Below are positions 1 to 17,752 of a stretch of DNA of 45,145 bases, in pieces. Every line of letters begins with the position of its first letter. Position 1 is the first letter of the stretch. The notes under the pieces are model-generated. The model was not told where the DNA came from. It saw only the letters and a list, made by a program, of their open reading frames with translations, and made no database searches. The stretch is from positions 20,373 to 65,517 of the forward strand of contig PLYM01000152.1 in the NCBI GenBank assembly GCA_003153375.1. The letters run 5' to 3'. The position numbers and the translations under genes were made by a program. Source of the stretch: Planctomycetaceae bacterium (GTDB taxonomy: Bacteria; Planctomycetota; Planctomycetia; Pirellulales; PALSA-1355).

Positions 1-549
1 GAAGGCACCTATCCCCTGCCCGAGGCCCAGCAAGACCGGTTCATGTTCAAGGTGTTCGTCAATTATCCGAGCTTCAGCGAAGAGTTCGAGATCGCGCGTC
101 GCACGACCACCACGGCCACGGACCATATCGAACCGGTGTTGACCGCCGAGGAGATTCTCGATCTGCAACGGATCGTCCGCGAGGTGCCGATCACCGACCA
201 CTTGATCCGCTATGCCCTGACCTTGATCCGACAGACGCGCGTCGGCGAAGCGGGCGCGCCGGACTTTGTCGCCGACCAGTTGAGCTGGGGCGCCGGTCCG
301 CGGGCGGTGCAGTTTCTGATCCTGGGATCGAAGGCGCGAGCCCTGCTCCACGGCCGGACACACGTCGCGACCGAGGACATCCAGGCGCTGATCAAGCCGG
401 TGCTGCGGCATCGGCTGGTGGTGAATTTTTCGGCCGAGAGCGAGGGGGTCACGTCCGACGACATCGTCGACCGGCTGCTGGCAATTACTCCGACCAAAGA
501 GGACGAGCTGACGAGCGATGCCCGCTTCCAAAAGATTTTTGCATCCTGA
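1..549 (+). CDS. MoxR-family AAA+ ATPase, C-terminal part (5' truncated by window edge)
   Basis: The reading frame is open from base 1 and encodes about 182 residues. It opens with [17 protein letters not shown], the strongly conserved MoxR stretch that follows sensor 1, and continues through the C-terminal helical lid domain. The Walker A and B motifs lie outside the window. MoxR ATPases (known family role) act as chaperone-like partners of von Willebrand A (vWA) proteins, inserting cofactors or remodelling complexes. That fits the DUF58 and two vWA genes that follow. Its 3' end overlaps the DUF58 gene by 32 bases, which suggests translational coupling. The internal ATG at base 43 is not the real start, because conserved sequence extends upstream of it. 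Confidence 0.93.
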
Positions 550-1417
550 AGCGATCGGTCGCATCTCGCGGCTCGACTTGCGCGCTCGCCACATCGTGGA
601 AGGGTTCTTGTCTGGAATCCACCGCAGTCCGTATTTCGGGCAGTCGGTCGAGTTCCTGCAGCACCGCGAGTACACGCCCGGTGACGATCTGCGCCACGTC
701 GACTGGAAAGTCTGGGCCAAGCAGGATCGCTACTACGTCAAGCAGTTCGAGGAAGACACGAACCTGCGGGCGACGCTCTTGGTTGACGTCTCGGGCAGCA
801 TGCGTTACGGCTCGGGCCCGCTCGATAAATACGAATACGGCTGCACGATCGCCGCGTCGTTGGCCTATTTGCTGCTCAGGCAGCAGGACGCGGTCGGCTG
901 CGTCGCGTTCGACGACGCGGTCCGCGTCAAGGTTCCGCAGCGCACCAAGCGCAGCCACTTGAACTCGATCGTGCAGGCCCTGGCAGCCAGCGAGCCGCGC
1001 GAAAAAACCGAAATGCTCTCGCTGCTGCGGGCCGCGGTCGAAGCCTATCCGCGGCGCGGCCTGATGATCCTGGTGTCCGACCTGCTGGTCGAGCGCACGG
1101 GTTTGTTCAAGGGCCTGAAGTTGTTGCGGCAGCACGGCCACGACGTGATCGTGTTTCACGTGATGGATGATCAGGAGCTCGATTTTTCATTCAACGGGCC
1201 CACGCGGTTCGAGGGCTTGGAGCTGTCCGAGCGCCTGGCCTGCAACCCGCGGGCGCTGCGAGAGGGATATTTGCAAGCTTTGGGAGCGTATCTCGACGAA
1301 GTGCGCCGGGGGTGCGCGCGAGACGGCGTCGATTACGTGCAATTGCGCACGAGCCAACCGCTCGATGCCGCGTTGGCCGCGTTTCTGAGTTCCCGGCAAG
1401 GCAGGCTACGCGACTAA
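518..1417 (+). CDS. DUF58 domain protein with vWA fold
   Basis: This 299-residue protein carries the DUF58 signature [17 protein letters not shown] at about residues 51-67. A vWA metal-ion-dependent adhesion (MIDAS) motif DVSGS follows at residues 90-94. It has no signal peptide or membrane segment, so it is probably cytoplasmic. DUF58 proteins are almost always encoded directly after moxR (established context) and are thought to be its partner or substrate. The start lies inside the moxR 3' end with a purine-rich AAGAGGA stretch upstream. The next gene begins five bases after the stop. The biochemical activity of DUF58 proteins is not known in detail. Confidence 0.93.
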
Positions 1418-1422
1418 TCGAT

Positions 1423-3723
1423 ATGCCTAGTTTCGTCAACGAATCCTTTCTCTGGTGGGGCTTGCCGCTGGTCGGCGTGCCGGTGCTGATCCACCTCATC
1501 AACCTGATGCGCCATCGGCGCGTCCCGTGGGCCGCCATGGAGTTTCTGTTGGCGAGCCAGAAGCGGCACCAGAAATCGATTCTGTTCAAGCAATTGCTGC
1601 TGTTATTGCTGCGCATGTTGGCCGTGGCGGCCGTGGTGTTGATGGTCGCCCAGCCGCTGGTGCGCAACCAATGGGGCGCCTTATTCGGCGGCAGCAAGAC
1701 GCACCATATCGTGCTCCTGGACGACAGCTTTTCGATGTCCGATCATTGGGCCGACACCAGCGCGTTCGATCAGGCCCGAGCCGTGGTCACGCGGTTGGCC
1801 GCCCAGGCCGCGCATCAGGACACCCCGCAGATTTTCACCCTGTTCCGCTTCTCTCGCGCTCGCCGCTTGTCGCGCGGCACACAGCCCGACCTGCTCGGTG
1901 TTGCTCTCGACGCGGACTTCACGGCGCATCTGGAAAAGGTGCTCGGCCCCCTGACCCCCTCGCAAACGGCAGCCGACCCGCAAGACGCTCTCGACGCGGT
2001 CGATCGTTTGCCCCCCAAGCCGGCCGACGAGGACCGCATCATTTATCTGGTTTCCGACTTTCGCGCCAACCAGTGGCAGGAACCGACCGGGCTGCGCAAG
2101 AGCTTGCACCAGCTCGACGAGGCGGGCGCCCAGATTCATCTGATCAATTGCGTTGACGCCGTCCACGAAAACCTGGCCATTGCCTCGCTGCGCCCTGGCT
2201 CGGGAACGCGCGCTGCCGGCGTGCCGCTGCTGGCCGAAGTGTCGGTGCGCAATTTCGGCGCCTCCGACGCCCGGGGCGTATCGGTATCGCTCGAGGAAGA
2301 CGGCCACGCGCGACCGGCGATCGTGTTCGAGGAATTGCCCGCCGGCAAGCTGATCACACGCCGCTTTCCGGTGTTGTTTGCCACGGCCGGCGAGCACGAG
2401 ATCGTGGCCCGCCTGCAAACCGATGCGGTGACCGCCGACAATGCCCGCTCGCTGGTGCTCGAAGTGCCCAAGACGGTCGACGTGTTGATCGTCGACGGCG
2501 AAGCCAAGGCCCAGGATGCGTTCTTCTTGAGCACAGCGTTGGCGCCCGGCGGAAAGGTCACCAGCGGATTGCGGCCCCAGGTCGAGTCGCCGCGCTATTT
2601 GCGAGATCATGCACTCGACGGCTTCGAATCGATCTATCTGCTCAACATCGCGCGGCTTGAGCCGGCGGAAATCGGTGCGCTCGAGAGCTACGTCAAGGCT
2701 GGCGGCGGCTTGGGAATTTTCATGGGCGAGTTGTCGCGCGCCGATTTTTTCAACGAGCAACTGTATCGCGGCGGCGAGGGGCTTTTTCCGTTGCCCCTGG
2801 CCGGCCCCGCCGAGTTGGTCGTCGATCGGCTGGAAAAAGCGCCCGACCTGGAAGTGACCGATCATCCCATCTTCGCGGTGTTCGCCGGCGAAAGGAACAG
2901 CTTTCTCAACACCGTGACGGTCAGCCGTTATTTTGCTGCACAGAAGGATTGGAACCCCGCGCCCGACTCGAGCACGCGCGTGATTGCCAGGCTGCGCAAC
3001 AAGGCGCCCTTCGCTGTCGAACATAAGTTTGGCGAGGGACACGTCGTGGCAGTGCTCACGAAGGCCTCGCCGCTCGAGACGTCGCTGGGAAGCTGGAACA
3101 ACTGGGGCCGCGACAATCCGAGCTACGTCGTGGCCATGCTCGAAATGCAATCGTATCTGTCCAGCTCGCGCCATCCCGATACTTCGCGCCTGGTGGGCAC
3201 ACCGCTCGACGTGCCGGTTGACGAAGCCAAGTTCCTTCCGCAGGTCCGCTTTGTCCTGCCACGCGATGCTGGCGGCGGCACGCTGACCGTGGACGCGACC
3301 ACGACCACCAATCCAGCACAAGCGCCAGTTACTCATCCGCCAGCCGCCAACGACACCGCCACGGCACCGGTCGAGCCGCGGGCGGACCACAACGCCGTGC
3401 TGGCCGACACCGACGCCAGCGGCATCTACCAGGCGCAATTGACTGGCACCGACGGCTCCCAGCGCATCGAACGATTCGCCTTCAACGTCGTGAGCGAGGA
3501 GGGTGACCTGCACAAGCTCGACGCCGAACAGTTGGCCAGCCGTTTGGAAGGCGTTCGCTATGAGTTTCACCAGGCGGCCGACATCGACTACAACCCCCAG
3601 CAACTGGCCGGCTTCAATCTCAGCGAGAGCCTGCTCTATTGTCTGATCGCGATCCTGCTGGGCGAACAGGTGTTGGCCTATGCGTGCAGTTATCACCCCT
3701 CGGCCAAGGGGAGCACACGCTGA
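1423..3723 (+). CDS. BatA-like membrane-anchored vWA domain protein
   Basis: Starting at ATG 1423 the protein has 766 residues. The frame is open further upstream, but the DUF58 stop and the N-terminal membrane domain favour this start. Residues 6-28 and 57-78 are hydrophobic helices typical of the BatA N-terminal double-transmembrane domain. A vWA domain follows with an intact MIDAS motif (D100, S102, S104). The middle of the protein resembles the beta-sandwich plus glutamine-amidotransferase-like fold seen in other planctomycete vWA proteins. A further hydrophobic helix lies near the C-terminus (about 735-757). The stop overlaps the next start as TGATG. In other bacteria such proteins form envelope complexes linked to MoxR. 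The exact role here is unknown. Confidence 0.88.
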   Translation: MPSFVNESFLWWGLPLVGVPVLIHLINLMRHRRVPWAAMEFLLASQKRHQKSILFKQLLLLLLRMLAVAAVVLMVAQPLVRNQWGALFGGSKTHHIVLLDDSFSMSDHWADTSAFDQARAVVTRLAAQAAHQDTPQIFTLFRFSRARRLSRGTQPDLLGVALDADFTAHLEKVLGPLTPSQTAADPQDALDAVDRLPPKPADEDRIIYLVSDFRANQWQEPTGLRKSLHQLDEAGAQIHLINCVDAVHENLAIASLRPGSGTRAAGVPLLAEVSVRNFGASDARGVSVSLEEDGHARPAIVFEELPAGKLITRRFPVLFATAGEHEIVARLQTDAVTADNARSLVLEVPKTVDVLIVDGEAKAQDAFFLSTALAPGGKVTSGLRPQVESPRYLRDHALDGFESIYLLNIARLEPAEIGALESYVKAGGGLGIFMGELSRADFFNEQLYRGGEGLFPLPLAGPAELVVDRLEKAPDLEVTDHPIFAVFAGERNSFLNTVTVSRYFAAQKDWNPAPDSSTRVIARLRNKAPFAVEHKFGEGHVVAVLTKASPLETSLGSWNNWGRDNPSYVVAMLEMQSYLSSSRHPDTSRLVGTPLDVPVDEAKFLPQVRFVLPRDAGGGTLTVDATTTTNPAQAPVTHPPAANDTATAPVEPRADHNAVLADTDASGIYQAQLTGTDGSQRIERFAFNVVSEEGDLHKLDAEQLASRLEGVRYEFHQAADIDYNPQQLAGFNLSESLLYCLIAILLGEQVLAYACSYHPSAKGSTR

Positions 3724-6200
3724 TGGGAACCTGGCCCTTGATCGCTCAGACGACAACGCGAACCACCTATGAGCTGGCCCGGGTGCAAGCCTTTGGGGAG
3801 CGTTGGCATTACCTTGTGCTGGCCCTGATTTGCCTGGCCATCGTGGGGTTGGCCGCGTGGATGGTGCGCCGCGACAGCATCGAACTGCCGCGTGGCGTGG
3901 CGTGGCTGCTGATGCTGATGCGAGTTTCGGCGCTGCTGGGCCTGCTGGTGTTCTATCTGCACTTGGAAAAGCGGACCGAGCGCAAGGTCGTACACAATTC
4001 CCGAGTGCTGATGCTGGTCGATACCAGCTTGAGCATGGGACTGCACGATGCCACGGCATCGGCCGTGCCGGCCACTCCGAATCGCGTCGACCAGGTCGTG
4101 GCGCTGCTGGGCGAGGGTGGATTGATCGACAGGTTGCGCGGCCAGCACGAAGTCGTCGTCAATCGCTTTGATGCCGACCTGAGCCGTGTGGCATCCTTCG
4201 CCAAATCCGTGCCGCCAACCGACCAGACTCCGCCAGACGCGGCGGCCGCCACGAAGGGTCCGACAGCGAGCACGTCGGAAAAGGAAAAGTCGGCGCCCGA
4301 TCTGAAAGCCGCGCTGGTTCCGCAAGGCATCGAGACCCGCTTGGGCCAGTCGCTGCGCCAGCTGATCAACGACGAGCGCTCAACGCCCGTGTCGGGCGTG
4401 GTGCTGTTCAGTGACGGCGGGCAGAACTCGGGCATCGATCCCTCGGCGGCCATCGCCACGGCCCGCGATGCCAAGATTCCAATCTTCACAGTCGGCATCG
4501 GCACCGACCGCCGGCCGGCCAATGTGCGAGTCAGCGATCTGGTGGCCCCGGCCCGGGCCTATCCGGGCGACAGCTTCAAGATCACAGGCTATCTGCAAGC
4601 CGAGGGACTGGCCGATCGCACCGTGTCGGTCGACCTGATGTCGAACGTCGCGGGCGAAGCCAGCAAAGCCCAGGACGGCAAGGTCGAGAACAGCCAACGC
4701 GTCACGCTCGGTGGCCGCGGCGAGGTGGTGGCGGTCAATTTCGACATTACACCTCCAGAGAAGGGCCGCCGCGTCTATCGATTGCGCGTCAAGGCTCCGC
4801 CTGAGGACAGCAATCCGAACGACGACCAGCAGGAAGTCGACATCGAAATCGTCGATCGCAAGACCAAGGTGCTGCTGATCGCCAGCGGGCCCACGCGCGA
4901 ATACATTTTCCTGCGCAACCAATTGCAGCGCGACAAGGAAACCGTGGTCGACGTCTGGCTGCAATCGGCGCCCGAGGGGATCTCGCAGGACGCCCACAAG
5001 ATTCTCACCGCCCTGCCCAGCACGCCGCAGGAATTGTTCGAATACGATTGCATCGTGGCGTTTGATCCCGATTGGAAAGAGCTCGACTCGACACAGGTCG
5101 ACTTGCTCGAGCGGTGGGTAGCCGAGAAAGCCGGCGGACTGATCGTCGTGGCCGGGCCGGTGCAGATGGACCGCTGGATTCAGGATCCCAAGCTCGTCAA
5201 GTTGCGGGGGTTGTATCCGGTCGAGTTCAATCGTCGCTTGTCCGTGATGGAAGAGGGCCGCTTTGGCTCGACCGTGCCCTGGCCGGTCGACTTTTCGCGC
5301 GAAGGGCTCGAAGCTGAGTTCCTGTGGTTGGCCGACAGCGCGGCTCGCAGCCAGCAGATCTGGTTGACGTTTCCCGGCGTGTTTGGCTATTACAGCGTCC
5401 GCGGCCCGAAGCCCGGCGCTACGGTCTTCGGCCGCTATTCGGATCCCGAGGCTCAAATCGGCGAGCAGCGACCGGCTTACATGGCTGGCCAGTTTTACGG
5501 CGCCGGTCGCGTGTTCTATCTGGGCAGCGGCGAGATGTGGCGGCTGCGGGCATTGAGCGACAATTACTTCGAGCAGTTCTACACCAAGCTCATTCGCCAC
5601 GTTTCGCAAGGCCGCCTGCTGCTCGGATCGAGCCGCGGTATGCTCCTGGTTGATCGCGACCGCTATTTGCTCGGCAACACCGTGGTGGTGCGGGCCCAAT
5701 TGAGCAATGTGCAATTCGAGCCGCTCGATGTTCCCAGCGTGACGCTGCAAGTCATTCGGCCCGACAGCACCAGCGAAGCCTTGCAGCTCACCGCCGATCC
5801 CTCGCGCATGGGAATGTACGTCGGCCAGTTCACGGCGCTGGTCGAAGGCACCTATCGTCTCGAGATGGGCGTGCCCGACAGCGACGCTGAGCAGCTTTCG
5901 CGCCGCATTCAGGTCAAAGTGCCCGACCTGGAGCGCGAAAATCCGGAGCGCAACGATGCCCTGCTGAGTGAAATCGCCAAGCGCACCGGCGGGCTCTACT
6001 ACGTCGGCGCCGAGGCCGTGCTGGGCTCGCAAGGCGTGCCGCCCCTGGCCAATCAATTGCACGATCGCACCGAAGTCACCTACCTGGCGGGCGTCACCGA
6101 CCGGGAGTTCGAACACAACTGGCTGCAAGGCTTGTTGATCGTAATTTGCTCCTTGTTGTTCCTGGAGTGGTTAATCCGTCGTCTTTCGAAACTCGCTTAA
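3723..6200 (+). CDS. second large membrane-anchored vWA domain protein
   Basis: This is an 825-residue protein starting at ATG 3723, inside the TGATG overlap with the previous gene. Hydrophobic helices lie at about 29-48 and 58-79. A vWA domain follows with MIDAS residues D100, S102 and S104 (motif DTSLS). A Pro/Thr/Lys-rich insert at about 160-195 interrupts the vWA domain. The second half carries a glutamine-amidotransferase-like region beginning KVLLIASGPTREYI. A C-terminal membrane helix runs from about 799 to 820. It appears to be a paralogue of the preceding vWA protein in architecture, though not closely in sequence. Both probably sit in the cytoplasmic membrane with most of the chain on one side, and the pair may form one complex. 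Confidence 0.88.
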   Translation: MGTWPLIAQTTTRTTYELARVQAFGERWHYLVLALICLAIVGLAAWMVRRDSIELPRGVAWLLMLMRVSALLGLLVFYLHLEKRTERKVVHNSRVLMLVDTSLSMGLHDATASAVPATPNRVDQVVALLGEGGLIDRLRGQHEVVVNRFDADLSRVASFAKSVPPTDQTPPDAAAATKGPTASTSEKEKSAPDLKAALVPQGIETRLGQSLRQLINDERSTPVSGVVLFSDGGQNSGIDPSAAIATARDAKIPIFTVGIGTDRRPANVRVSDLVAPARAYPGDSFKITGYLQAEGLADRTVSVDLMSNVAGEASKAQDGKVENSQRVTLGGRGEVVAVNFDITPPEKGRRVYRLRVKAPPEDSNPNDDQQEVDIEIVDRKTKVLLIASGPTREYIFLRNQLQRDKETVVDVWLQSAPEGISQDAHKILTALPSTPQELFEYDCIVAFDPDWKELDSTQVDLLERWVAEKAGGLIVVAGPVQMDRWIQDPKLVKLRGLYPVEFNRRLSVMEEGRFGSTVPWPVDFSREGLEAEFLWLADSAARSQQIWLTFPGVFGYYSVRGPKPGATVFGRYSDPEAQIGEQRPAYMAGQFYGAGRVFYLGSGEMWRLRALSDNYFEQFYTKLIRHVSQGRLLLGSSRGMLLVDRDRYLLGNTVVVRAQLSNVQFEPLDVPSVTLQVIRPDSTSEALQLTADPSRMGMYVGQFTALVEGTYRLEMGVPDSDAEQLSRRIQVKVPDLERENPERNDALLSEIAKRTGGLYYVGAEAVLGSQGVPPLANQLHDRTEVTYLAGVTDREFEHNWLQGLLIVICSLLFLEWLIRRLSKLA

Positions 6201-6244
6201 CCGATTTGCAGCAGCAGATAAACAACCGTTCGGCAATTTCCGCA

Positions 6245-8488
6245 ATGGCCACGCAAGCCCCCTACAACTCGAACCACCTCGAGCCGGCCCTGGAGTCGTT
6301 GCTCGCGCGGTTGCGGCGGCGCATTCGCTCCTATATATGGGCCGATGGCCTGGCGATGGTCCTGGTCGTGTTGGCCGGCGCGTTCTGGATCAGCCTGGCG
6401 GTCGATTGGTTGTTCGAGCCGCCGCGGCTGCTGCGGATTGCCGCCCAGGTGGCCTTGGCCGGCGCGTTGGCATACGTGATCTTTCGCTTCCTGCTCGAGC
6501 GGCTGCTGGTGCGGCTCTCGAATCGCAACATGGCGCTGCTGGTCGAGCGACGTTTCGGCGCGTTCCGCGACAGTTTGCTGACGGCCGTCGAATTGACGCA
6601 AGATCCCGACCACGCCGCCGAGTTCAACGCCGACATGCTGGCCCTGACGCACCGCGACGCGTTGAACCATGCCAACGACGTCGATCTGAGCCGGATTTTC
6701 AACGTGGCTCCGTTGGCCCGCCGCGTCAGCCTGGCCGTGGCTTTGTCGGCCGCGCTGGTCGTCTTCGGCGTGGGCGCATCGAGTGCCTTTGGCACCTGGG
6801 CCCGCCGCAATCTGCTGTTGAGCGACGAGTTGTGGCCCCGCGCCACGCGGCTGTTGGTCGAAGGTTTCAACGAGCAGGGAGACGCCAAGATCGCCCGCGG
6901 ATCGGACTGGAACCTGGTGGTCAAGGCCGACGCCGCCTTGGGCCGCGACATCCCCGAAATCGTCCAGGTCCGTTACACCACGCTCGACGGTGCCCGCGGA
7001 CGCGAGAACATGAGTCGCGAAGGCGTGGTGGCGCCGGGCGAAGCTCCCTTCCAGAACTATTCGCACACGTTCAAAGGAGTCCTCGCGCCGCTCGACTTTT
7101 TCGTCAAGGGGGGCGACGACCGCGCGGGGCCCTTCCATCTCGAGGTGGTCGACAGCCCCACGATCAGCCGCATGACGTTGCACTGCGAGTATCCCCCTTA
7201 CATGCACCGTGGCCCGCGCGACTTGCCCGTGGCTGGGTTGATGCAGTTGCCGCGCGGTACTGAGATCACGATCCTGGCCGAAGCCAACAAGCCGTTGGTC
7301 TCAGTGCAGATCGACGACATGGCCGACGAGAATTCGCCGCTGACCCACCAGCTGAACTTTGCCAACGAGCCCGCCGGCGCGCAGCAGAGCTTCAGCTTCA
7401 GTGTGCCGCGATTGGCCGGCGACAAAACGCTGTTGTTCACTTTGCGCGACGTCGACGGCATTCGCAGTCGCGAGGCGGTGCGGCTATCGCTCTCGGCGAT
7501 TGTCGACGAACCGCCGCAAGTGAACGTGCAGCTCAAGGGCATCGGCACCGCGATCACGGCCCAGGCGCGGCTCCCCGCCGCCGGCGAGGTGTCGGACGAC
7601 TATGGCGTTGAGAAAATCTGGTTCGATTATCACGTCGACGAATCGCCCGCCCGGCAGCAACCGTTCGCCGCCGAGCCCGACGGGGTCGAAAAGCTGGCCG
7701 TGGCCGACGCCCTGGAAGTGCGCGATTTGAAGCTGGAACCGAAACAAAAGCTGCACTGGGCCGTGCAGGCCGCCGACACGTTCGCTCTCGACGGAGGCCC
7801 GAACGTCGGCACGAGTCAGCGCTATGTGCTCGACGTCGTGACACCCGAGCAGTTGCGGTCGATGCTCGAGGCCCGCGAGTTGATGCTTCGCCGCCGGTTC
7901 GAAACCATCGTCGAAGAACTGACCGAAACCCGCGGACTGCTGGCCAGCGTGGTCACCGGCCCCGTGAAAAAGCCCGAGGGGGGCGACGGCAAGCCGGCAA
8001 CGGAGCCGGGCGATACCGAAGCCAGGCCCGGGGGCATCCAGCCGTCGGTGCAAGTCGAACGCGTACGGCAAAATGGCGAACGCAGCGCCCACGAGACGCT
8101 CCAGGTGGCGGTGGCGTTCGACGAGATTCGCGAGGAAATGATCAATAATCGGATCGACACCGAAGAGCTGAAGACGCGGCTCAAGGAAGGCGTCGCCGGC
8201 CCCCTCAAACGGATCGCCTCGACGATGTTCCCCAAGTGGGAGGAACAACTGAAACAATTGGCCACGCAATTGGCCGACCCGCAGGCCGCCCCTGCCACTC
8301 AGGCCGCCGCCTTGGCCCAGGCGGACGCAATTCTCATCGAAATGAGGCAGGTGCTTGATAAAATGTTGGAATTGGAGACGTTCAACGAAGTGTTGGACAT
8401 GCTGCGGCAAGTCATCAGTGCGCAAGAGAAGGTGAACTCCGAAACCAAACAAAAGCAGAAGCAGAAGTTGCGCGACCTGACCGAATGA
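6245..8488 (+). CDS. DUF4175-like large membrane protein
   Basis: The protein has 747 residues from ATG 6245. An upstream in-frame ATG at 6146 would overlap the previous gene by 55 bases and adds nothing recognisable. A basic N-terminal stretch (RLRRRIRSY) precedes two hydrophobic helices at about 33-52 and 59-78. A third lies near 160-180. The rest is a long predicted extracytoplasmic region ending in helical, Lys/Gln-rich sequence. The layout resembles the DUF4175 family, commonly encoded next to moxR/vWA genes in planctomycetes and proteobacteria; that assignment is from memory of the family and not a search. No catalytic motif is visible. The stop codon sits in an ATGA, 68 bases before the most likely next start. 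Confidence 0.8.
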   Translation: MATQAPYNSNHLEPALESLLARLRRRIRSYIWADGLAMVLVVLAGAFWISLAVDWLFEPPRLLRIAAQVALAGALAYVIFRFLLERLLVRLSNRNMALLVERRFGAFRDSLLTAVELTQDPDHAAEFNADMLALTHRDALNHANDVDLSRIFNVAPLARRVSLAVALSAALVVFGVGASSAFGTWARRNLLLSDELWPRATRLLVEGFNEQGDAKIARGSDWNLVVKADAALGRDIPEIVQVRYTTLDGARGRENMSREGVVAPGEAPFQNYSHTFKGVLAPLDFFVKGGDDRAGPFHLEVVDSPTISRMTLHCEYPPYMHRGPRDLPVAGLMQLPRGTEITILAEANKPLVSVQIDDMADENSPLTHQLNFANEPAGAQQSFSFSVPRLAGDKTLLFTLRDVDGIRSREAVRLSLSAIVDEPPQVNVQLKGIGTAITAQARLPAAGEVSDDYGVEKIWFDYHVDESPARQQPFAAEPDGVEKLAVADALEVRDLKLEPKQKLHWAVQAADTFALDGGPNVGTSQRYVLDVVTPEQLRSMLEARELMLRRRFETIVEELTETRGLLASVVTGPVKKPEGGDGKPATEPGDTEARPGGIQPSVQVERVRQNGERSAHETLQVAVAFDEIREEMINNRIDTEELKTRLKEGVAGPLKRIASTMFPKWEEQLKQLATQLADPQAAPATQAAALAQADAILIEMRQVLDKMLELETFNEVLDMLRQVISAQEKVNSETKQKQKQKLRDLTE

Positions 8489-8556
8489 CGGAGCTGGGTC
8501 TGGCCTGTGTTGGGCCGAAGCCCGCGGGAGACCGAAAAGTGTTGGAGAAAGGTCTG

Positions 8557-10479
8557 ATGTCGAAAACCTGGCTCACGGCGATCGTGGTTGCCGGCCTGGC
8601 GCTGGTCCTCTGCACGAGCGCGCTGGCACAGCCAGTTCCGGCCCCTGCTGCGGAGGTCGCGGACGATGACGCTGTCCCGGTCGCAAAAGCGCCCGCTCCG
8701 GCCGAGAAGGACTCGTCAGAAGCCAAACCATCCGCCAAGCCCGAGAGAGAGGGCCTGGCCGACCATCAACAGCAAGTGGCCGAGCGGTTCCGCGAGCTCG
8801 AACGGCTGCTGTTGCGCATGGCCGAACTGACCGCCCCCACCGACCCCCGCCGCGCTGCCCTGCTGCGTCAGGCCGTGGCCCAGAGCAAGCAGCGCGACAT
8901 CGACCATCAATTCGAACAGTTGGTCGAGCTGCTCAAGCAAGAACGCCTGGCCGTGGTGGTGAAAGGCCAAAGCGAGGTGCAGCAAGATCTGGCCCGGCTG
9001 CTCGAACTCCTGATGAGCGAGGACCGCACCAAACGAATCGAATCGGAAAAAGAGCAGGTGCGGGAATATCTCAAGCGGGTCAACAAGATCATCAAGGAGC
9101 AAAAAGGCATTCAAGGCGAGACCGGCCGCGGCGGCGACCCGCGCAAACTCGCCGACCAACAAAGCGACCTGTCCGACAAGACGGGCGAATTGGCCAAGGA
9201 TCTGGACGACGATCCGTCGAAGCAAGCCCAGGCTCACGACAAACCCCAGGAGGATCCGCAGCCCCAGGAGGATCGGCAGAAGAAGCCCAAGGACGACGAC
9301 TCGAAAGAAGGCGAGCAGAAAAAGCCCGGCGACAAAGGTCAGGCAGAGGACAAGGATCAGCCGGAGGATCAAGGCAAACCGGATGACAAGTCGAAGGATG
9401 GTGGCCCCGGTGCCAAGCCGGGCGAAAAGGACAACGAGAAGAGCAAACCGAAACCCAAACCCCCGGGCGACCAGCCCGACAGTGAGCAACCGCAGGGCCA
9501 GAAAGATGACCAAGAGAAGAAGCAGCGGCAGAAGCCGCAGGATTCGCCGCCGGGCGACCAGCGAGACAAGGACTCGAAAGACCAAGACCAGCCGTCGCAG
9601 GGCAAGCCGGCGGACCAACCGCCGGGCGGCGACGTAAGTCCGCCCAGCGACGAGCCCCCCGCCAGCGAAAGTCCCGCGCAAAAGCGGCTCGAGCAGGCAC
9701 AGCAGCGCATGAAAGAAGCCCAGCAGAAGCTGGAAGAGGCCAAACGCTCGGACGCCCAGGAAAAACAGGCCGAGGCCATCAAGGAACTCGAGCAAGCCAA
9801 GGCCGACCTGGAAGAGATCCTGCGTCAGTTGCGCGAGGAGGAAGTGTCGCGCACCTTGGCCATGCTCGAAGGCCGCTTTCGCAAGATGCTCGATCAGCAG
9901 GTCGAAGTGTACGAAGGCACGAAACGCCTCGACAAGGTGCCCCAGCCCGAACGCGACCGCGACGACGAAATCGAAGCCGGTCGCCTGAGCGGCAAGGAAC
10001 GGCAGATCGCCACCGAAGCCGACAAGGCCCTGGAAGTGTTGCGCGAGGAAGGTTCGGCCGTGTCGTTTCCCGAGGCGGTCATTGAAATGCGCGACGACAT
10101 GGAATCCGTGATCAAGCGACTGGCCGAAGCCAAGGTCGGCGAACTGACGCAGGGCATCGAGAAAGACATCATCGCCGCGTTGGAAGAAATGATCGCGGCC
10201 TTGCAAAAGGCCCAGAAGGAAATGGAGAACAAGGACAAACAGGGCGAACCCCAGCAAGGCGGTCAGGAAGAGTCGCCGCTGGTCGACACGCTCTCGGAAT
10301 TGAAAATGATTCGCGCCCTGCAAATGAGGGTCAACACGCGCACCGAGCGCTATGCGGCCCTCTCCAAGAACGAGCAGACCGACACGCCCGAGTTGCTCGA
10401 AGCGCTCAAGCGTCTGGCCGAGCGCGAAGAGCGCATTCACAAGGTCACCCGCGACATCGTTTTAGGGAGGAACCGATGA
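8557..10479 (+). CDS. exported coiled-coil protein with long charged low-complexity region
   Basis: I choose ATG 8557 (640 residues) because an AAAGG ribosome-binding site precedes it and a good signal peptide starts there (MSKTWLTAIVVAGLALVLC, cleavage after TSALA). ATG 8485, overlapping the previous stop as ATGA, is the alternative. Residues about 60-185 are helical and charged. Residues about 185-375 are almost entirely Lys, Asp, Glu, Pro, Gln, Gly and Ser, a disordered alternating-charge linker. Residues about 380-640 form long predicted coiled coils rich in Glu, Lys, Gln and Leu. No enzyme motif is seen. It may act as a periplasmic scaffold for the upstream membrane proteins (inference). 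Confidence 0.85.
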   Translation: MSKTWLTAIVVAGLALVLCTSALAQPVPAPAAEVADDDAVPVAKAPAPAEKDSSEAKPSAKPEREGLADHQQQVAERFRELERLLLRMAELTAPTDPRRAALLRQAVAQSKQRDIDHQFEQLVELLKQERLAVVVKGQSEVQQDLARLLELLMSEDRTKRIESEKEQVREYLKRVNKIIKEQKGIQGETGRGGDPRKLADQQSDLSDKTGELAKDLDDDPSKQAQAHDKPQEDPQPQEDRQKKPKDDDSKEGEQKKPGDKGQAEDKDQPEDQGKPDDKSKDGGPGAKPGEKDNEKSKPKPKPPGDQPDSEQPQGQKDDQEKKQRQKPQDSPPGDQRDKDSKDQDQPSQGKPADQPPGGDVSPPSDEPPASESPAQKRLEQAQQRMKEAQQKLEEAKRSDAQEKQAEAIKELEQAKADLEEILRQLREEEVSRTLAMLEGRFRKMLDQQVEVYEGTKRLDKVPQPERDRDDEIEAGRLSGKERQIATEADKALEVLREEGSAVSFPEAVIEMRDDMESVIKRLAEAKVGELTQGIEKDIIAALEEMIAALQKAQKEMENKDKQGEPQQGGQEESPLVDTLSELKMIRALQMRVNTRTERYAALSKNEQTDTPELLEALKRLAEREERIHKVTRDIVLGRNR

Positions 10480-11549
10480 GTGTACCGCGTTCTCTGGCTT
10501 CGCTGATCGTGCTGGCGGCGCTGTGTGCCGCGCCGGCCGTGGCTTTCGACAACAAACCGAACGGCGACTTTGCCCAGAAGGCCAGTTGGAAGATTCCCAC
10601 GGCCGAAAGCGTGCGTGAACAGGCCCTGGCCTGGCTGGCCGATCGGCCGATCGACGCCCCGGCGCGCGCGCAGGTCGAAGCCCTGTGGTCCAGCGCCACG
10701 CTGCCCGGCGGCAAGGACCACTTGCTCGACGTTCTCTGCGCCACATTTGCCGCGGCCGATCCGCAAGCGCGCGATCTGGTGACGTTGTGCTCGCAGCCCC
10801 GGCGTCAGGTCACTCTGCCCGATGTCACCTGGCTGGTCGATGGCAAGACGGCCGCCATCGAGCGGCAGAATTTGCGACTGCTCTACGGCCGCTGGCTCGT
10901 GCAAGAGACGCTCTATGACGAAGCGACTGGGCAGCTGGATGGCCTGCAGCCGGAAGACGTCGCCGATCCGGCGGGGTTGTTGTTCTATCAAGCCGTGGTG
11001 CAGCAGCGCACGCTGAAGCGCGACGCCGGCCTGTCGTCGATCGCGCGGCTACTGGAAAATGAAGCCAACTTGCCCAAGCGATTCACTTCGGTGGCCCGGC
11101 TGATGCAGGCCGATCTCGATGCCCTCAAGGACGAATCGCTCGACCACATCGCGCGCCGCATGGACGACGTGCGCCGCCGACTCGACCTGGGTCGGGCCGG
11201 GCCCAAGGTGCGCGAAGTCGAGGATGGCGTGATCGCATCGCTCGACAAGCTGATCAAAGAGATGGAACAACAGCAGCAAGCGGCCGCCGCGGCTGCCGCC
11301 GCCGCCGGACGTGGCGGCACTCGCTCCACGCAGCCCGCGCGCGACAGCGTGCCGATGGAAGGCAAGGGCGCGGGCGAAGTGGCTAAGAAACCTCTCGGCG
11401 GCGAAGGCGGTTGGGGCGACTTGCCTCCCCGCCAGCGCCAGGAAGCCTTGCAGCAGATTGGCAAGGATTTTCCCGCTCACTATCGCGACGTCATCGAACA
11501 GTACTTCCGCAAACTGGCCAGTGAAAGCACTGAGCAGAGCGATAAATAG
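10476..11549 (+). CDS. exported hypothetical protein
   Basis: This 357-residue protein begins in an ATGA overlap with the preceding gene and is preceded by a strong AGGGAGGAA ribosome-binding site. The N-terminus is a signal peptide (LASLIVLAALCAAPAVA). The body is mostly alpha-helical by composition, with a Gln/Ala-rich run near residues 263-277 followed by Gly/Arg-rich sequence. I recognise no family. Position and export signal suggest it works with the neighbouring exported coiled-coil protein. A 15-base direct repeat spans its stop codon (see separate entry). Confidence 0.85.
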   Translation: MSVPRSLASLIVLAALCAAPAVAFDNKPNGDFAQKASWKIPTAESVREQALAWLADRPIDAPARAQVEALWSSATLPGGKDHLLDVLCATFAAADPQARDLVTLCSQPRRQVTLPDVTWLVDGKTAAIERQNLRLLYGRWLVQETLYDEATGQLDGLQPEDVADPAGLLFYQAVVQQRTLKRDAGLSSIARLLENEANLPKRFTSVARLMQADLDALKDESLDHIARRMDDVRRRLDLGRAGPKVREVEDGVIASLDKLIKEMEQQQQAAAAAAAAAGRGGTRSTQPARDSVPMEGKGAGEVAKKPLGGEGGWGDLPPRQRQEALQQIGKDFPAHYRDVIEQYFRKLASESTEQSDK

Positions 11550-12816: not shown

Positions 12817-14637
12817 ATGCGGTTCCTGGATCATTTATTCTTGCCGGCCACGCGCGGAGCACGTCGCACGACGACGTGCGCCCCGCTTTGCGGCCTGGCC
12901 CTGGCCATTGTGTGCAGCCTGCCGGCGACGCTTTGCGCCGCGGTCGATGCGGACGTTCTCCAGGCCGAAGCGGCCCGCGTCGCGGTGGTCGATGCGGCCT
13001 GTCGTTCCACGGTGGCGATCTTTGCCAAAGGGGGCCAAGGGGGCGGATCGGGGGTCGTGATCAGCGCCGACGGCTATGCGCTCAGCAACTTCCACGTCAC
13101 GCACGAGGCCGGCACCGCGATGAAGTGCGGCATGGCCGACGGTAAGCTGTACGACGCCGTGATCGTGGGCCTCGACCCGACGGGCGACGTGGCCCTCATC
13201 AAACTGCTCGGACGCGACGATTTTCCGCACGCCGAGATGGCCGATAGCGACAAGGTGCAAGTCGGCGATTGGTGCTTTGCCATCGGCAATCCGTTCCTGC
13301 TGGCCACCGACTTTCACCCGACCGTGAGTTACGGCGTGATCTCGGGCGTACACCGCTATCAATATCCGGCCGGCTCGATCCTGGAGTACAGCGACTGCCT
13401 GCAAGCCGACGCGGCCATCAACCCGGGCAACTCGGGCGGGCCGATGTTTGACGCGGCGGGGCAACTGATCGGCATCAACGGCCGCGGCTCGTTCGAAAAG
13501 CGAGGCCGCGTGAACGTCGGCGTCGGCTATGCGATCTCGATCAATCAGATCAAGAACTTCCTCGGCCACCTGAAAAGTGGCCGATTGGTTGACCATGCCA
13601 CGCTGGGAGCCAGCGTGCGCAGCGACGAGAATCGCCGCGTGATCGTCGACGACGTGCTCGAAGAGTCCGACGCCTTTCGCCGCGGCCTGCGCTATGGCGA
13701 CGAGCTGGTCAGCTTCGCCGGACGTCCGGTCAATACCGCCAACGGGTTCAAGAACGTGCTGGGCATCTATCCCAAGGGTTGGCGCGTGGCGGTTTCCTAC
13801 CGTCGCAAGACCGAGGCCTTTGATGTGCCGGTGCGGCTGCGCGGCGTGCATCGCGATGGCGAGCTGGCCCAGCTCGTGCAATCGGCCCCGCAGGGCGAAG
13901 GCGATGAGCCGCCCAAGCCCAAGGGGGGCGAACCGCCGAAACGCGGATCGAAGCCGAAAATGAAGGCCCACGCGCATGCCAAGCCGGAGCCCATGCCTGA
14001 AATCGTCAAACAGCATTTCGTCGACAAGCCCGGCTACGTCAACTACTACTTCAACGAGTTGAACCGCGACCGGGTTTGGAAAGCCCTGGTGGCGCGGGGC
14101 GACTACAGTGCCTGGCAAGGCGCTTGGACGTTGACGGGTCAGAACTCGACGGCCGAGGAGTTCAAGCTCGAATTCTCTGACAAGCAAGCGTCGATCAAGT
14201 TGCCCAGTGGCGAATTGGCGATCGAACTCGGCGGCGAGCTGGCTAATCATCTCGAGCCGCCAGGTAGCGGCGGGTTGCTCGTGGCCTTGGCCATCTGGCG
14301 GCGGCTGCTGGTGCAGGGGCCCGCCAATTTCGGGGACGTTTACTATCTGGGCACGGCCCCGCTCGAAGGTCGCGAGAAGCTGGTCGACGTGCTCGTGGGC
14401 GGCCACGGCGACGTCGAGTGCAACTTCCAGTTCGACCCTGATAGCGGACACCTGGTAGCGATGGAATTGATTCCCGAGGAGGACACCGATCCTTGTGAGC
14501 TGTACTTCAGCGAGTATCGCGAAGTCGAGGGCCGCATGTTGCCGGGACGAATCGAAGTGCATCACGGCGACGAGTTCAAGGAAGTCTTTCAGTGCAAACA
14601 GTACACCTTCGCGGCCCCGCCCGAGAAGCAGCCATGA
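12817..14637 (+). CDS. HtrA-like trypsin-fold serine protease with PDZ domain, triad intact
   Basis: This 606-residue exported protein has a signal peptide ending near residue 42 (CSLPATLCAA). The trypsin-like domain spans about 55-250 with all three catalytic residues in place: H93 in LSNFHV, D124 in TGDVALIKL and S206 in NPGNSGGPM. A PDZ domain follows at about 260-350. A Lys/Pro/His-rich linker (about 362-395) leads to a C-terminal domain of roughly 210 residues that I do not recognise. HtrA-type proteases degrade or refold misfolded envelope proteins. The gene starts nine bases after the NPCBM gene and its stop overlaps the next start as ATGA, so it is probably co-transcribed with both. 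Confidence 0.92.
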   Translation: MRFLDHLFLPATRGARRTTTCAPLCGLALAIVCSLPATLCAAVDADVLQAEAARVAVVDAACRSTVAIFAKGGQGGGSGVVISADGYALSNFHVTHEAGTAMKCGMADGKLYDAVIVGLDPTGDVALIKLLGRDDFPHAEMADSDKVQVGDWCFAIGNPFLLATDFHPTVSYGVISGVHRYQYPAGSILEYSDCLQADAAINPGNSGGPMFDAAGQLIGINGRGSFEKRGRVNVGVGYAISINQIKNFLGHLKSGRLVDHATLGASVRSDENRRVIVDDVLEESDAFRRGLRYGDELVSFAGRPVNTANGFKNVLGIYPKGWRVAVSYRRKTEAFDVPVRLRGVHRDGELAQLVQSAPQGEGDEPPKPKGGEPPKRGSKPKMKAHAHAKPEPMPEIVKQHFVDKPGYVNYYFNELNRDRVWKALVARGDYSAWQGAWTLTGQNSTAEEFKLEFSDKQASIKLPSGELAIELGGELANHLEPPGSGGLLVALAIWRRLLVQGPANFGDVYYLGTAPLEGREKLVDVLVGGHGDVECNFQFDPDSGHLVAMELIPEEDTDPCELYFSEYREVEGRMLPGRIEVHHGDEFKEVFQCKQYTFAAPPEKQP

Positions 14638-15713
14638 GTTTTTGCTCGCATCGGTTTTCCATTCGACGGTTGGCCGTGTCGCCGGCGGCGCGGCTCGGTG
14701 CGTGCGCGCTGCTGAGCGTCTCGCTGCTTTGTGTGGCGCTCGAGGAGTCACTATCGGCGGCCGATTCGTTCGCGGCCGTGATTGCCGAAACGCAGCCCAA
14801 GATGGTCAAGATTTATGGCGCCGGCGGACCGCGCGGGCTGGAATCATATCAAAGCGGCTTCTTGATTTCCGACCAGGGACATATTGTCACCGTCTGGAGC
14901 TACGTCCTCGACACCGACTACATCACGGCCACGCTCGACGACGGGCGAAAGTTCGAGGCCAAGCTGCTGGGCGCCGATCCGCGGCTCGACCTGGCCGTGT
15001 TGAAAGTCGAAGCCAGGGAATTGCCCCACTTCGAGCTCGCCGCCGGCGTGCCGGGCGAGGCCGGCAATCGGGTACTGGCGTTCAGCAACTTGTTTGGCGT
15101 CGCCACGGGCGACGAACCGGCCAGCGTGCAGCATGGAATCATCGCCGTCAAAACGCGGCTGGATGCCCGTCGCGGCACTTTTGAAACACCCTATCACGGC
15201 TCGGTCTATGTGCTCGACGCCATGACGAACAATCCTGGCGCCGCGGGCGGAGCCCTGACGAACCTCCACGGCGAATTGCTGGCGATGCTCGGCAAGGAAC
15301 TGCGCAGTGCGCAAAACAACATCTGGCTGAACTACTCTCTGCCGATCGAGGAGTTACGCTCGTCGATCGAGCAAATCCTGCAAGGAAAATTCCGTCCTGG
15401 CGAGGACAAGACTACCACCAAGCCGGTCGACGCCATCGACCTGGCTCAGCTTGGGCTGGTGCTGGTGCCCGACGTGCTCGATCGCACGCCCCCCTACGTC
15501 GACCTGGTCCGCGCCGACTCACCCGCCGGCCTGGCGGGGGTCAAGTCCGACGACCTCGTGGTGTTTGTCGGCGACAACCTGGTCCATTCCTGCAAGGGTT
15601 TTCGCGAGGAGCTTTCGCGCATCGAGCGCGACAGCAAGTTGCGGATTGTTTTGATGCGCGACCAGGAGTTGGTCGAAGTCGAAATTCAACCGGTCGCGGA
15701 GCAGAAGAAATGA
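14634..15713 (+). CDS. HtrA-like pseudoprotease (His and Ser lost) with PDZ domain
   Basis: This is a 359-residue protein from ATG 14634 (ATGA overlap). The N-terminus carries a signal peptide (ACALLSVSLLCVALEESLSAA). The trypsin-like fold is clear, with the strand pattern GFLISDQGHIVTVWSYV and DPRLDLAVLKV. The catalytic His position reads Ser89 (VTVWSYV instead of VTNxHVV). The Asp is kept (D119). The Ser position is Ala204 (NPGAAGGAL instead of NPGNSGGPL). A C-terminal PDZ domain covers about 275-355. By the known mechanism of serine proteases it cannot be catalytic in the usual way. It is probably a binding or regulatory partner of the active protease next door (inference). Confidence 0.9.
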   Translation: MSFCSHRFSIRRLAVSPAARLGACALLSVSLLCVALEESLSAADSFAAVIAETQPKMVKIYGAGGPRGLESYQSGFLISDQGHIVTVWSYVLDTDYITATLDDGRKFEAKLLGADPRLDLAVLKVEARELPHFELAAGVPGEAGNRVLAFSNLFGVATGDEPASVQHGIIAVKTRLDARRGTFETPYHGSVYVLDAMTNNPGAAGGALTNLHGELLAMLGKELRSAQNNIWLNYSLPIEELRSSIEQILQGKFRPGEDKTTTKPVDAIDLAQLGLVLVPDVLDRTPPYVDLVRADSPAGLAGVKSDDLVVFVGDNLVHSCKGFREELSRIERDSKLRIVLMRDQELVEVEIQPVAEQKK

Positions 15714-17752
15714 GTGGTAGGCTGAAGGCTGAAGGCTGTAGGCTGAAGGTCGGAAATAGCGGCGCCGCTTGCTGGGCGCTGCTGGTTGCGACCTCGTTGA
15801 TGATGTCGGCAGGCCACGCGCTGGCGGCGGACGAATTGCAGCGGCGCGAAGAGCAGGCCATGAAGGCGGCCGTGGCGCGGGTGGCGCCATCGGTCGTGCG
15901 CATTGAGACGGTTGGCGGCCTGGAGCGCGTGGGACAGGTGCTGATCGGCACCGGGCCGACGACGGGTCTGGTCGTGTCGGCCGAGGGGCATATCGTTTCT
16001 AGCGCGTTCAACTTCGCACAAAAGCCCGATTCGATTCTGGTCACCCTCAGCGACGGCTCGCGCCATGCCGCCAAATTGGTCGCCACGGATCACAGCCGGA
16101 TGCTCGTGCTGTTGAAGATCGAGACCGAAGCCAAGCTCACCGTGCCCGAGGCGGTGCCCCTGGCTGAAATGCGCGTCGGCCAATGGTCCTTGGCCGTGGG
16201 CCGCACGTTCGACGCGGGGCAGACGAACCTTTCAGTCGGCATCGTCAGCGCGCTCGATCGAATCTGGGGCAAGGCCGTGCAAACCGACGCCAAGATTTCG
16301 CCCAATAATTACGGCGGTCCGCTCATCGATATCGCCGGCCGGGTGCTGGGCGTGCTCGTGCCCATGTCTCCCGACGGCACTGGCGAAATGGCCGGCGTTG
16401 AATGGTACGACTCGGGCATCGGCTTTGCCATTCCGCTGGCCGGCGTGGTGCAAGTGCTGCCGAAGCTTGTCCAGGGCCAGGACCTGCAACCCGGCGTGCT
16501 GGGCGTGAATCTGAAAGGCGCGGACCTGTACGGCCAGGCCACGACGCTCGCGGCCGTTCGAGCCACGGGGCCGGCGTACAAGGCCGGCTTCCGGGCAGGC
16601 GACGTGATCGTCGAGGCCGGCGGCCAACCGGTCACGCGTCCCGCCGAATTGAAACATCAGTTGGGCCGTCTCTACGCCGGCGAGAAGATCAAGCTCGTGG
16701 CCCGTCGCGGCGACGGGCGCATCGATCGCGAAGTCGAGTTGGCGGACAAGATCGAGCCGTTTGATTTTCCCTTTCTGGGCATCCTGCCGATGCGTCCGCT
16801 GGCCGGCGAAAAGGCGGCCGGACTCGTCGTGCGTTACGTCTATCCCGACAGCCCTGCGGCGACGGTTGGCATCAAGGCCGGCGATCGCATTCAAGCCGTC
16901 GGCGGAACCGAGGTTGAATCGGCCGACTCACTCGCGCAAAAGCTGCAAAACCTGGCGCCTGGCGAGCCGGTGCAAATCGAAGTCCGCCGTGGCAGCGAGA
17001 CTTTGCTGCTGCGACCCATCTTGGGCCGACTGCCCGAAAGCCTCGTCGATGAATTGCCGCCAGCGCACGCCGCCGTCGAGCCGCCCGTCGCGCCCGACAA
17101 GCCAGGCGAAACTGAGCCCGAGCAGCCCCAGGTGGGCGTGGTCGCGCTCAAGATTCCCGAATTTCAAAACGAGTGCCTGGCCTACGTGCCCGAGTCCTAT
17201 GATCCGCGGGTCGCGTACGGCGTTGTGGTCTGGCTCCACGCGCCCGGAGGTCTCAAGCAGGATGAATTGATCGAGCTTTGGAAGCCGCTTTGCCAACAGC
17301 ACGATTTCATTCTCGTGGCGCCCAAGGCGACCGATCGCACCAAGTGGCAACCGACCGAGGGGCGTTTCGTGCGCCGAGCGCTCGACGACGTGATGAAAAA
17401 TTATACGACCGACCCTTCGCGCATCGTACTGCTGGGTCAGGAGGGGGGCGGAGCGATGGCCTACCTGGTTGGGTTGGCGAGTCCCGACGTGGTGCGAGCC
17501 GTGGCCGTGGTCGACTCTCCCATGCCCCGCCTGGTGCAGGTGCCAGAAACCGAGCCGGTGCATCGCCTGGCATTCTTCACCACGCTGGCCACGAAGAGCG
17601 AAACGACCGCGGCGGTCGAAGCGGGCATCAAACGCCTGCGGGCGATGAAGTACCCCGTCACCGTCAAGGAAGTCGGGGAGCAAGGTCGCTCGCTGTTGAC
17701 CGACGAGCTCGAAGCCCTGGTCCGCTGGTTCGATGCTCTCGACCGGCTGTGA
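15710..17752 (+). CDS. fusion of HtrA-like pseudoprotease, two PDZ domains and inactive alpha/beta-hydrolase-like domain
   Basis: The protein has 680 residues. ATG 15710 is the only plausible start, in an ATGA overlap. The first 15 codons are encoded by a heptanucleotide repeat, which supplies the basic n-region of a signal peptide whose core is CWALLVATSLMMSAGHALA. The trypsin-like domain (about 50-250) lacks all three triad residues: His becomes Phe100, Asp becomes Met131 and Ser becomes Tyr201 (SPNNYGGPL). Two PDZ domains follow at about 262-345 and 354-438. The C-terminal 200 residues resemble an esterase/dienelactone-hydrolase fold, but the nucleophile elbow reads GQEGG with Glu578 where Ser is expected. 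No terminal His motif is seen. It is likely a non-enzymatic scaffold or binding protein. Confidence 0.88.
   Translation: MSGRLKAEGCRLKVGNSGAACWALLVATSLMMSAGHALAADELQRREEQAMKAAVARVAPSVVRIETVGGLERVGQVLIGTGPTTGLVVSAEGHIVSSAFNFAQKPDSILVTLSDGSRHAAKLVATDHSRMLVLLKIETEAKLTVPEAVPLAEMRVGQWSLAVGRTFDAGQTNLSVGIVSALDRIWGKAVQTDAKISPNNYGGPLIDIAGRVLGVLVPMSPDGTGEMAGVEWYDSGIGFAIPLAGVVQVLPKLVQGQDLQPGVLGVNLKGADLYGQATTLAAVRATGPAYKAGFRAGDVIVEAGGQPVTRPAELKHQLGRLYAGEKIKLVARRGDGRIDREVELADKIEPFDFPFLGILPMRPLAGEKAAGLVVRYVYPDSPAATVGIKAGDRIQAVGGTEVESADSLAQKLQNLAPGEPVQIEVRRGSETLLLRPILGRLPESLVDELPPAHAAVEPPVAPDKPGETEPEQPQVGVVALKIPEFQNECLAYVPESYDPRVAYGVVVWLHAPGGLKQDELIELWKPLCQQHDFILVAPKATDRTKWQPTEGRFVRRALDDVMKNYTTDPSRIVLLGQEGGGAMAYLVGLASPDVVRAVAVVDSPMPRLVQVPETEPVHRLAFFTTLATKSETTAAVEAGIKRLRAMKYPVTVKEVGEQGRSLLTDELEALVRWFDALDRL
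15720..15747 (+). repeat. heptanucleotide tandem repeat (GGCTGAA)x4, translated
   Basis: Four 7-base units lie head to tail: GGCTGAA, GGCTGAA, GGCTGTA, GGCTGAA. They are inside the 5' end of the pseudoprotease-hydrolase gene and are read as the basic peptide RLKAEGCRLK. Confidence 0.95.

Follow-up and report, generated by a model that had tools for sequence, protein, structure and literature searches.

The closest known system is the MamE/MamO pair, in which an active HtrA protease and a separately encoded HtrA-like pseudoprotease belong to one gene cluster (PMC4794232). MamO is required for MamE-dependent proteolysis whether or not it has its triad histidine (PMC4794232). In plant Deg7, an active and a degenerate protease domain are joined with PDZ domains in one chain, a layout that resembles the L251 and L256 fusions described below, and the inactive domain of AtDeg7 has been reported to be involved in trimerisation (PMC3473262).

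The locus described here encodes three HtrA-like proteins, the catalytic P1 and the pseudoproteases P2 and P3. As in the case of MamO, degenerate triads are found in the same cluster as an active HtrA protein, but P2 and P3 are not MamO orthologs, since each scored 29.9 bits against the NCBIfam MamO model, whose cut-off is 800. The TauE-like C-terminal domain, a feature of MamO, had no Pfam match in P2 or P3. Differently from MamE/MamO, the trio has two pseudoproteases, both with PDZ domains, is part of a MoxR/Bat operon and spans a large part of a phylum; moreover, the pairing has several origins in magnetotactic Proteobacteria, whereas P2 and P3 form one old clade each. Deg7 is eukaryotic and has all its domains, four PDZ among them, in one polypeptide, whereas the trio consists of separate chains in most genomes and also includes P3. 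With DegP, DegQ and DegS (MEROPS S1C, HtrA/Do) the trio shares the fold, the PDZ architecture and the triad of P1; it differs in the missing triad of P2 and P3, in the extra C-terminal domain of P1 and in the dead hydrolase domain of P3. In the literature on HtrA pseudoproteases in Planctomycetes nothing was found on this trio, and the literature searched gave neither a phylum-spanning version with two pseudoproteases nor a second dead enzyme domain such as that of P3. The main text of the paper on essential genes of Planctopirus limnophila names no HtrA, PDZ or MoxR gene (PMC10632474).

Organisation of the locus

In the window, i.e. the whole 45,145-nucleotide stretch of DNA that was analysed, the trio is the end of an operon of the MoxR-DUF58-BatA-VWA type, whose upstream gene order is conserved (Table 1). 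The MoxR AAA+, DUF58, BatA-type and VWA genes are found together, as in the Bat (aerotolerance) and MoxR-VWA operons of Bacteroides, Borrelia, Leptospira and Rhizobium, whereas the Bat operon members named in the excerpted part of that source include neither the HtrA trio nor the NPCBM protein, U10, H6 or H5 (PMC5700661). The open reading frames and coordinates of the three HtrA-like genes, as well as the ATGA at both junctions, were the same as in the initial annotation. The signal peptides of P1, P2 and P3 are putative, as judged by eye only.

Table 1. Features of the HtrA trio and of the upstream operon (positions in the window).
Feature	Positions	Strand	Basis or remark
MoxR AAA+ ATPase gene, 3' end (AAA lid)	43..549	+	5' part outside the window, across a scaffold gap immediately upstream
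DUF58 protein of MoxR/Bat operon	518..1417	+	Pfam
BatA-type protein (aerotolerance regulator N-terminal domain)	1312..3723	+	Pfam
Large VWA-domain membrane protein, Bat/MoxR type	3639..6200	+	Weak VWA match
U10, conserved neighbour without Pfam family	6146..8488	+	Pfam, conserved gene order
H6, conserved neighbour; coiled, charged, predicted to be exported	8485..10479	+	Conserved gene order
H5, conserved neighbour without Pfam family	10476..11549	+	Pfam, conserved gene order
NPCBM-domain protein, predicted to be secreted; conserved, directly upstream of P1	11596..12807	+	Pfam, gene order
P1, catalytic HtrA/Do-like serine protease, 606 aa	12817..14637	+	Pfam, triad residues, ortholog alignment
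P2, HtrA-like pseudoprotease, 359 aa	14634..15713	+	Pfam, ortholog alignment, predicted structure, HMM alignment
P3, HtrA part (residues 1-486): pseudoprotease domain and two PDZ domains	15710..17167	+	Pfam, ortholog alignment, predicted structure
P3, C-terminal part (residues 487-680): alpha/beta-hydrolase domain, PHB-depolymerase/esterase type	17168..17752	+	

Catalytic residues of the three proteins

Pfam Trypsin_2 and PDZ matched P1, P2 and P3, in agreement with the HtrA fold and PDZ domains initially assigned to all three, and in each protein the trypsin-like domain precedes the PDZ, which is the S1C architecture. P1 has the His-Asp-Ser triad of S1C (H93/D124/S206) in its trypsin-like domain, and the triad was intact in every ortholog read (His 121/121, Asp 121/121, Ser 123/123) and in 19 of 19 outside class Planctomycetia. 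One PDZ domain (262-339) is followed by a Pro/Lys-rich linker and by a C-terminal domain (about 398-606), for which Pfam gave no match over the cut-off and the PDB no sequence match. The sub-threshold match of this domain to DUF4292 (E 0.014) is not taken as a family assignment.

The positions of the triad are held by S89/D119/A204 in P2, which has one PDZ domain (287-351), and by F100/M131/Y201 in P3, which has the motif NNYGGP and two PDZ domains. The alignment of P2 and P3 by HMM to solved DegP-like chains placed these residues in the catalytic His, Asp and Ser columns. All nine residues reported for the three proteins were confirmed. Structure prediction, which had been proposed as a check, gave models of P2 (pLDDT 82.9) and P3 (pLDDT 91.3) that match DegQ/DegP. 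The P2 model also superposes on the MamO protease domain (5hma; Z 23.7, rmsd 2.8, 187 aligned residues). Since they fail to retain the S1C triad, P2 and P3 are, as judged from their sequences, pseudoprotease homologues of S1C rather than proteases of that family.

The replacement residues are kept deeply across orthologs. Histidine is missing from the catalytic His position in 131 of 131 P2 orthologs, and 117 of these have Ser instead; the Asp position is Glu in 93 of 131, D119 of the window being therefore a minority state, and the nucleophile position is Ala in 109 of 131 (Y/F/Q/P/D/E outside class Planctomycetia). In P3 the Ser position is Tyr in 121 of 122 orthologs and again in 19 of 19 outside the class; at the His position, 105 of 122 have Phe or Tyr and none has His. 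As they are kept over about 125-131 orthologs per gene, these replacements are far beyond chance. That the Ser of P2 and the Tyr of P3 are held as strongly as functional residues might suggest another catalytic chemistry that draws on residues located elsewhere, but P2 and P3 have no general base and the variable P2 nucleophile position also speaks against it. Catalytic residues supplied elsewhere in P2 or P3 were looked for and none were found; this reading was considered, rejected and is regarded as very improbable.

A second degenerate enzyme domain in P3

The C-terminal part of P3, a domain absent from the initial annotation, matched NF050058 (E 3e-12, 46.6 bits, below the curated cut-off of 150), TIGR01840 (E 9.5e-5, also below the curated cut-off) and the esterase LC-Est1C (E 8.8e-7). 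By sequence it is therefore similar to alpha/beta-hydrolases, and its resemblance to PHB-depolymerase-type esterases is remote only. The GxSxG nucleophile motif is replaced by GQEGGG, and the nucleophile Ser is missing in 109 of 109 orthologs, the position being occupied by Q (40), E (25), G (14), K (8) and others. On these residues, the domain is a second dead enzyme domain.

Distribution and evolution of the trio

Among 148 evenly sampled Planctomycetia genomes, P1 was found in 107, P2 in 108 and P3 in 107, and the three proteins occupy the same genomes with one exception (G051, 89% complete), in which a P2-like gene is clustered with the upstream genes without P1 or P3. The gene trio is thus present in related genomes and is not a local accident. 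In the tree, P1, P2 and P3 are three separate clades, each older than the class split and each extending into other classes of Planctomycetota, with no sign of P2 as an intermediate. The "stepwise" loss of the triad claimed initially is consequently correct as a pattern of residues and not as a course of evolution, and the earlier interpretation as a whole is partly supported. From their sequences, many Planctomycetota carry a predicted exported protease beside two relatives in which the replacement of the catalytic residues is ancient.

In four genomes (G056, G160, G053 and G142) the trio is at three separate loci, all of them kept and with the same residue patterns. Taken by itself, the loss of catalytic residues would be compatible with P2 and P3 being decaying, functionless duplicates. 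Against this stand the retention in dispersed form, the open frames in >100 genomes and a mean column identity that in the P2 and P3 alignments (56% and 50%) is close to that of P1 (54%); conservation refutes pseudogene decay, whose probability we consider negligible.

In L251 (979 aa) and L256 (1126 aa), one assembly each and known from assembly-level sequence only, P1 and P2 form one continuous in-frame ORF; no fusion involving P3 was seen. All-or-none co-occurrence, dispersed retention and these fusions give strong support to the claim that an active protease has two pseudoproteases as its dedicated partners. Joint keeping and loss, together with the fusions, suggests one machine with one working part and two silent parts. 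Pseudoenzymes that act as inhibitors are known in general, and the retained PDZ domains, together with a dead site whose bulky Tyr could plug a pocket, would also suit inhibitors or decoys that hold the substrate by the PDZ and limit P1. A covalent 1:1 P1-P2 fusion would be odd for a decoy, and MamO, the nearest studied case, promotes proteolysis rather than limiting it (PMC4794232), so that we regard this role as improbable.

With the operon mean removed, the evolutionary distances of P1, P2 and P3 gave partial r values of 0.42, 0.31 and 0.33, a covariation that is weak, without significance test and not exclusive to the trio (H5-U10 0.50, P2-H6 0.35). H6 was absent or weakly matched in the tested genomes without the trio; because the joint loss takes in H6 too, more than the trio is lost as a unit. 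This behaviour of H6, the conserved order of the upstream genes, the covariation of P2 rates with H6 and H5 and the G051 cluster are what would be expected if P2 and P3 served the MoxR/VWA membrane machine as scaffolds or chaperones and bound its proteins instead of P1, their joint presence reflecting only a shared large envelope module. On the other hand, P1-P2 fusions exist, the three proteins are homologous HtrA-type chains of an oligomerising family, and within the trio every partial correlation is positive and ranks among the higher values. We consider the scaffold role unlikely.

Proposed complex

Our preferred reading of the sequences is that P1-P3 probably form one exported HtrA-type complex, in which P1 would be the sole cutting subunit and P2 and P3 non-catalytic modulators that shape, tether or switch P1 and contribute substrate-binding PDZ domains. 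In class Planctomycetia, the dead hydrolase domain of P3 would be a further binding module. The association of P1 with P2 is well supported by the sequences; we infer the place of P3 in the same complex, the 1:1:1 trimer and the substrates. Mixed trimers would be the most likely assembly, because HtrA proteases are built from trimers, and P1 may be under allosteric control by its dead neighbours. The complex would act at the cell envelope, jointly with the MoxR/VWA membrane proteins that the upstream genes encode. More tentatively, it may be an obligate 1:1:1 mixed HtrA trimer or a larger cage made of such trimers, old in Planctomycetota and coupled to a MoxR/VWA membrane machine, in which a single active site is joined by two fixed dead sites that the structure requires; this stricter version is possible, and we would not favour it over its being wrong.

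HtrA proteases are mostly known as homo-oligomers under cross-talk between neighbouring subunits. If the proposal is true, one live and two dead subunits, present over a large part of the phylum, would open this cross-talk to genetics and structural work, for which the trio is suited since every role is encoded by a separate gene. The pairing of active and inactive HtrA units, of which magnetosomes and plant Deg7 are the cases described to date, would then be a general solution; if the mixed trimer is also true, this would be an envelope protease with specialised subunits, like ClpP/ClpR or the proteasome rings. For Planctomycetota, whose cell envelope is unusual, the results point to a conserved protease module that is predicted to be exported.

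Gene junctions

Promoter and terminator scans of 12500-18300 gave no signal above shuffled sequence. The long reverse-strand ORFs over the trio (e.g. 12835-14751) were interpreted as frames that stay open in GC-rich coding DNA and not as genes. Matched production of the three proteins through the operon, as initially proposed, is not essential, because some genomes have P1-P3 at separate loci. At the orthologous loci, the exact four-base start-stop overlap was present in 49 of 136 P1-P2 junctions and in 53 of 130 P2-P3 junctions, and is therefore common within the trio and not universal.

Sequence and predicted structure of P1, P2 and P3

The triad positions of the three consecutive HtrA-like proteins are occupied by H93/D124/S206 in P1, S89/D119/A204 in P2 and F100/M131/Y201 in P3. 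These residues and the ATGA overlaps at both junctions of the head-to-tail ORFs, read directly from the sequence, are as the initial annotation had described them. In profile alignments with solved DegP-like chains, the residues of P2 and P3 fall on the catalytic columns. The predicted structures of both (mean pLDDT 82.9 and 91.3, respectively) match DegQ/DegP. The P2 model aligned to 4ynn_B with a VIA-align Z of 26.3 and an rmsd of 15.0 over 277 residues, a high value presumably due to a differently oriented PDZ; with the protease-domain-only chain 3lh3_A, Z was 24.8 and rmsd 3.1 over 200. For P3 and 4ynn_B the values were 27.5 and 7.8 over 362. The C-terminal domain of P1 is well conserved, with invariant Trp, Gly and Cys positions, and matched no known family, giving only a sub-threshold hit to DUF4292.

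Positions of the features, in the window or, where an L number is given, in loci of relatives
Feature	Position	Strand	Description
P1	12817-14637	+	ORF, 606 aa; trypsin-like domain and PDZ (Pfam)
P2	14634-15713	+	ORF, 359 aa; trypsin-like domain and PDZ (Pfam)
P3	15710-17752	+	ORF, 680 aa; trypsin-like domain and PDZ (Pfam)
P1 C-terminal domain	13999-14637
MoxR gene	1-549; L258:9442-10545
Regulator	27680-29698	-	FHA, GAF and sigma-54-interaction domains
G051 locus	L151:9896-10960		single degenerate P2-like gene
P1-P2 fusion	L251:8141-11080		979 aa; P1 1-345, P2 596-932
P1-P2 fusion	L256:4942-8322	-	1126 aa; P1 248-594, P2 813-1126

The last ~190 residues of P3, overlooked at first, form an alpha/beta-hydrolase domain of the PHB-depolymerase/esterase type (NF050058, E 3e-12; LC-Est1C, E 9e-7), whose nucleophile elbow reads GQEGGG. 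None of the 109 orthologs carrying this domain has Ser at the nucleophile position. Since this serine is absent too, both enzyme domains of P3 are predicted to be inactive. Compared by length, P3 is shorter in most relatives from the phylum outside the class Planctomycetia.

Conservation and age of the residue patterns

Among deduplicated orthologs, the P1 triad is invariant (H 121/121, D 121/121, S 123/123), and the non-catalytic residues of P2 and P3 proved to be conserved as well. In P2, the His position is Ser in 117 of 131 (N 9, G 3, T 2), the Asp position is E in 93 and D in 26 (others 12), and the Ser position is mostly Ala (A 109, G 6, T 4, P 4, S 3, others 5). In P3, the His position is never H (F 98, Y 7, others 17), the Asp position holds M 77, N 13, K 11 and others, and Tyr replaces the serine in 121 of 122 (V 1). 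Outside the class, the P1 triad and the P3 Tyr are each found in 19/19, and all 17 separate P2 ORFs lack both the His and a Ser at the Ser position.

In a 92-row maximum-likelihood tree (quick method without bootstrap, root not inferred), P1, P2 and P3 each form one clade (SH-aLRT 100, 100 and 99) that spans several classes. The remaining planctomycete HtrAs, like DegP, DegQ and DegS of E. coli, fall outside these clades. The separation of the three predates the split of the classes. Of the proposed "stepwise loss", the graded residue pattern from P1 to P3 stands, but an evolutionary path is not borne out by three separate clades. Two genomes of one family (L107 of G011, L106 of G028) carry a second, shorter cluster copy, whose P2 reads G/Q/S where the triad would be; P1, P2 and P3 of the L107 copy all fall among sequences from other classes, which suggests a transfer or an old duplicate. 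In four genomes of family f7 (G026, G123, G144, G162; e.g. locus L092), the family profiles give low scores for P1 and P3 and mostly also for P2; L092 has long branches for all three and a short P3, and P3 is short in G009 of that family too.

Distribution and genomic context

P2 was matched at roughly E 1e-43 or better in 38 of the 39 genomes sampled from the order Pirellulales, G019 being without; in the phylum sample, 32/199 genomes match P2. Of 148 genomes sampled evenly across the class, 108 have P2 (E ≤ 1e-40), 107 have P1 (E ≤ 1e-75) and 107 have P3 (E ≤ 1e-60). The genomes listed for each are the same save G051, an exception to joint presence: there U10, H6, H5 and NPCBM precede a single degenerate P2-like gene, and neither P1 nor P3 turned up, at a genome completeness of 89%. 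Only weaker HtrA matches came from twelve genomes that lack the trio (ten of family f21, plus G019 and G043).

The trio is preceded on its own strand by MoxR, DUF58, BatA, a large VWA protein, the conserved neighbours U10, H6 and H5, and a secreted NPCBM-domain protein. MoxR/VWA operons of this type occur in Bacteroides, Borrelia, Leptospira and Rhizobium, and are credited with no definite function (PMC5700661). The arrangement VWA-U10-H6-H5-NPCBM-P1-P2-P3 is repeated within the order, within the class and partly in other classes. In the best 80 of 232 relatives from a profile scan of genome contigs, P2 always has P1, P3 or both beside it, within the limits of the contig. A stretch of N right at the start of the window breaks the MoxR gene, whose frame changes across it; this is probably a scaffold gap rather than a mutation. 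A downstream regulator adjoins GFO/IDH/MocA-type oxidoreductases. One contig labelled Candidatus Nealsonbacteria (JABMRB010000139.1, L170) carries a planctomycete trio and is most likely mis-binned.

Evidence for an association beyond the operon

In four genomes (G053, G142 and the single-contig G056 and G160), P1, P2 and P3 lie at three separate places, all present and with unchanged residue patterns; H6 and a VWA gene also occur elsewhere in these genomes. In five others (G103, G154, G146, G114, G125) P3 alone is apart. Genomes without the trio have no H6 or only a weak match to it. P1 and P2 form one continuous ORF in two genomes of different families (L251, L256); in both, the P1 triad is complete and the P2 sites are degenerate, and no signal peptide was evident by eye, as all signal peptides were assessed, before the P2 part. 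Fused genes classically point to a physical association of their products. The distances of P1, P2 and P3 covary once the mean for the rest of the operon is removed (0.42, 0.31, 0.33), as do those of some other operon gene pairs. Joint presence, retention when dispersed and the P1-P2 fusion strongly support the initial annotation of an active protease with two dedicated pseudoprotease partners.

Possible mechanism and related systems

The comparative sequence data establish that one triad is intact and two are lost, that these states are old and maintained, and that the genes are retained together, with P1 and P2 fused in two genomes. P1, P2 and P3 may form mixed oligomers in which P1 would be the sole cutting subunit, and P2 and P3 would contribute architecture, substrate binding or allosteric switching. 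Since the Tyr at the P3 Ser position is near-totally conserved, we would guess that it could fill the active-site pocket, fixing a conformation. MamE-dependent proteolysis needs the presence of MamO, not its triad, a tested precedent for a non-catalytic HtrA role such as that proposed for P2 and P3 (PMC4794232).

That no such system had been described held for the trio in the open-access papers searched, but not for the pairing of active and dead HtrAs, known from MamE/MamO (PMC4794232) and, within one chain, from plant Deg7 (PMC3473262). New with respect to these are the two distinct pseudoproteases, the phylum range, the hydrolase domain that lacks its nucleophile and the location beside MoxR/VWA genes.
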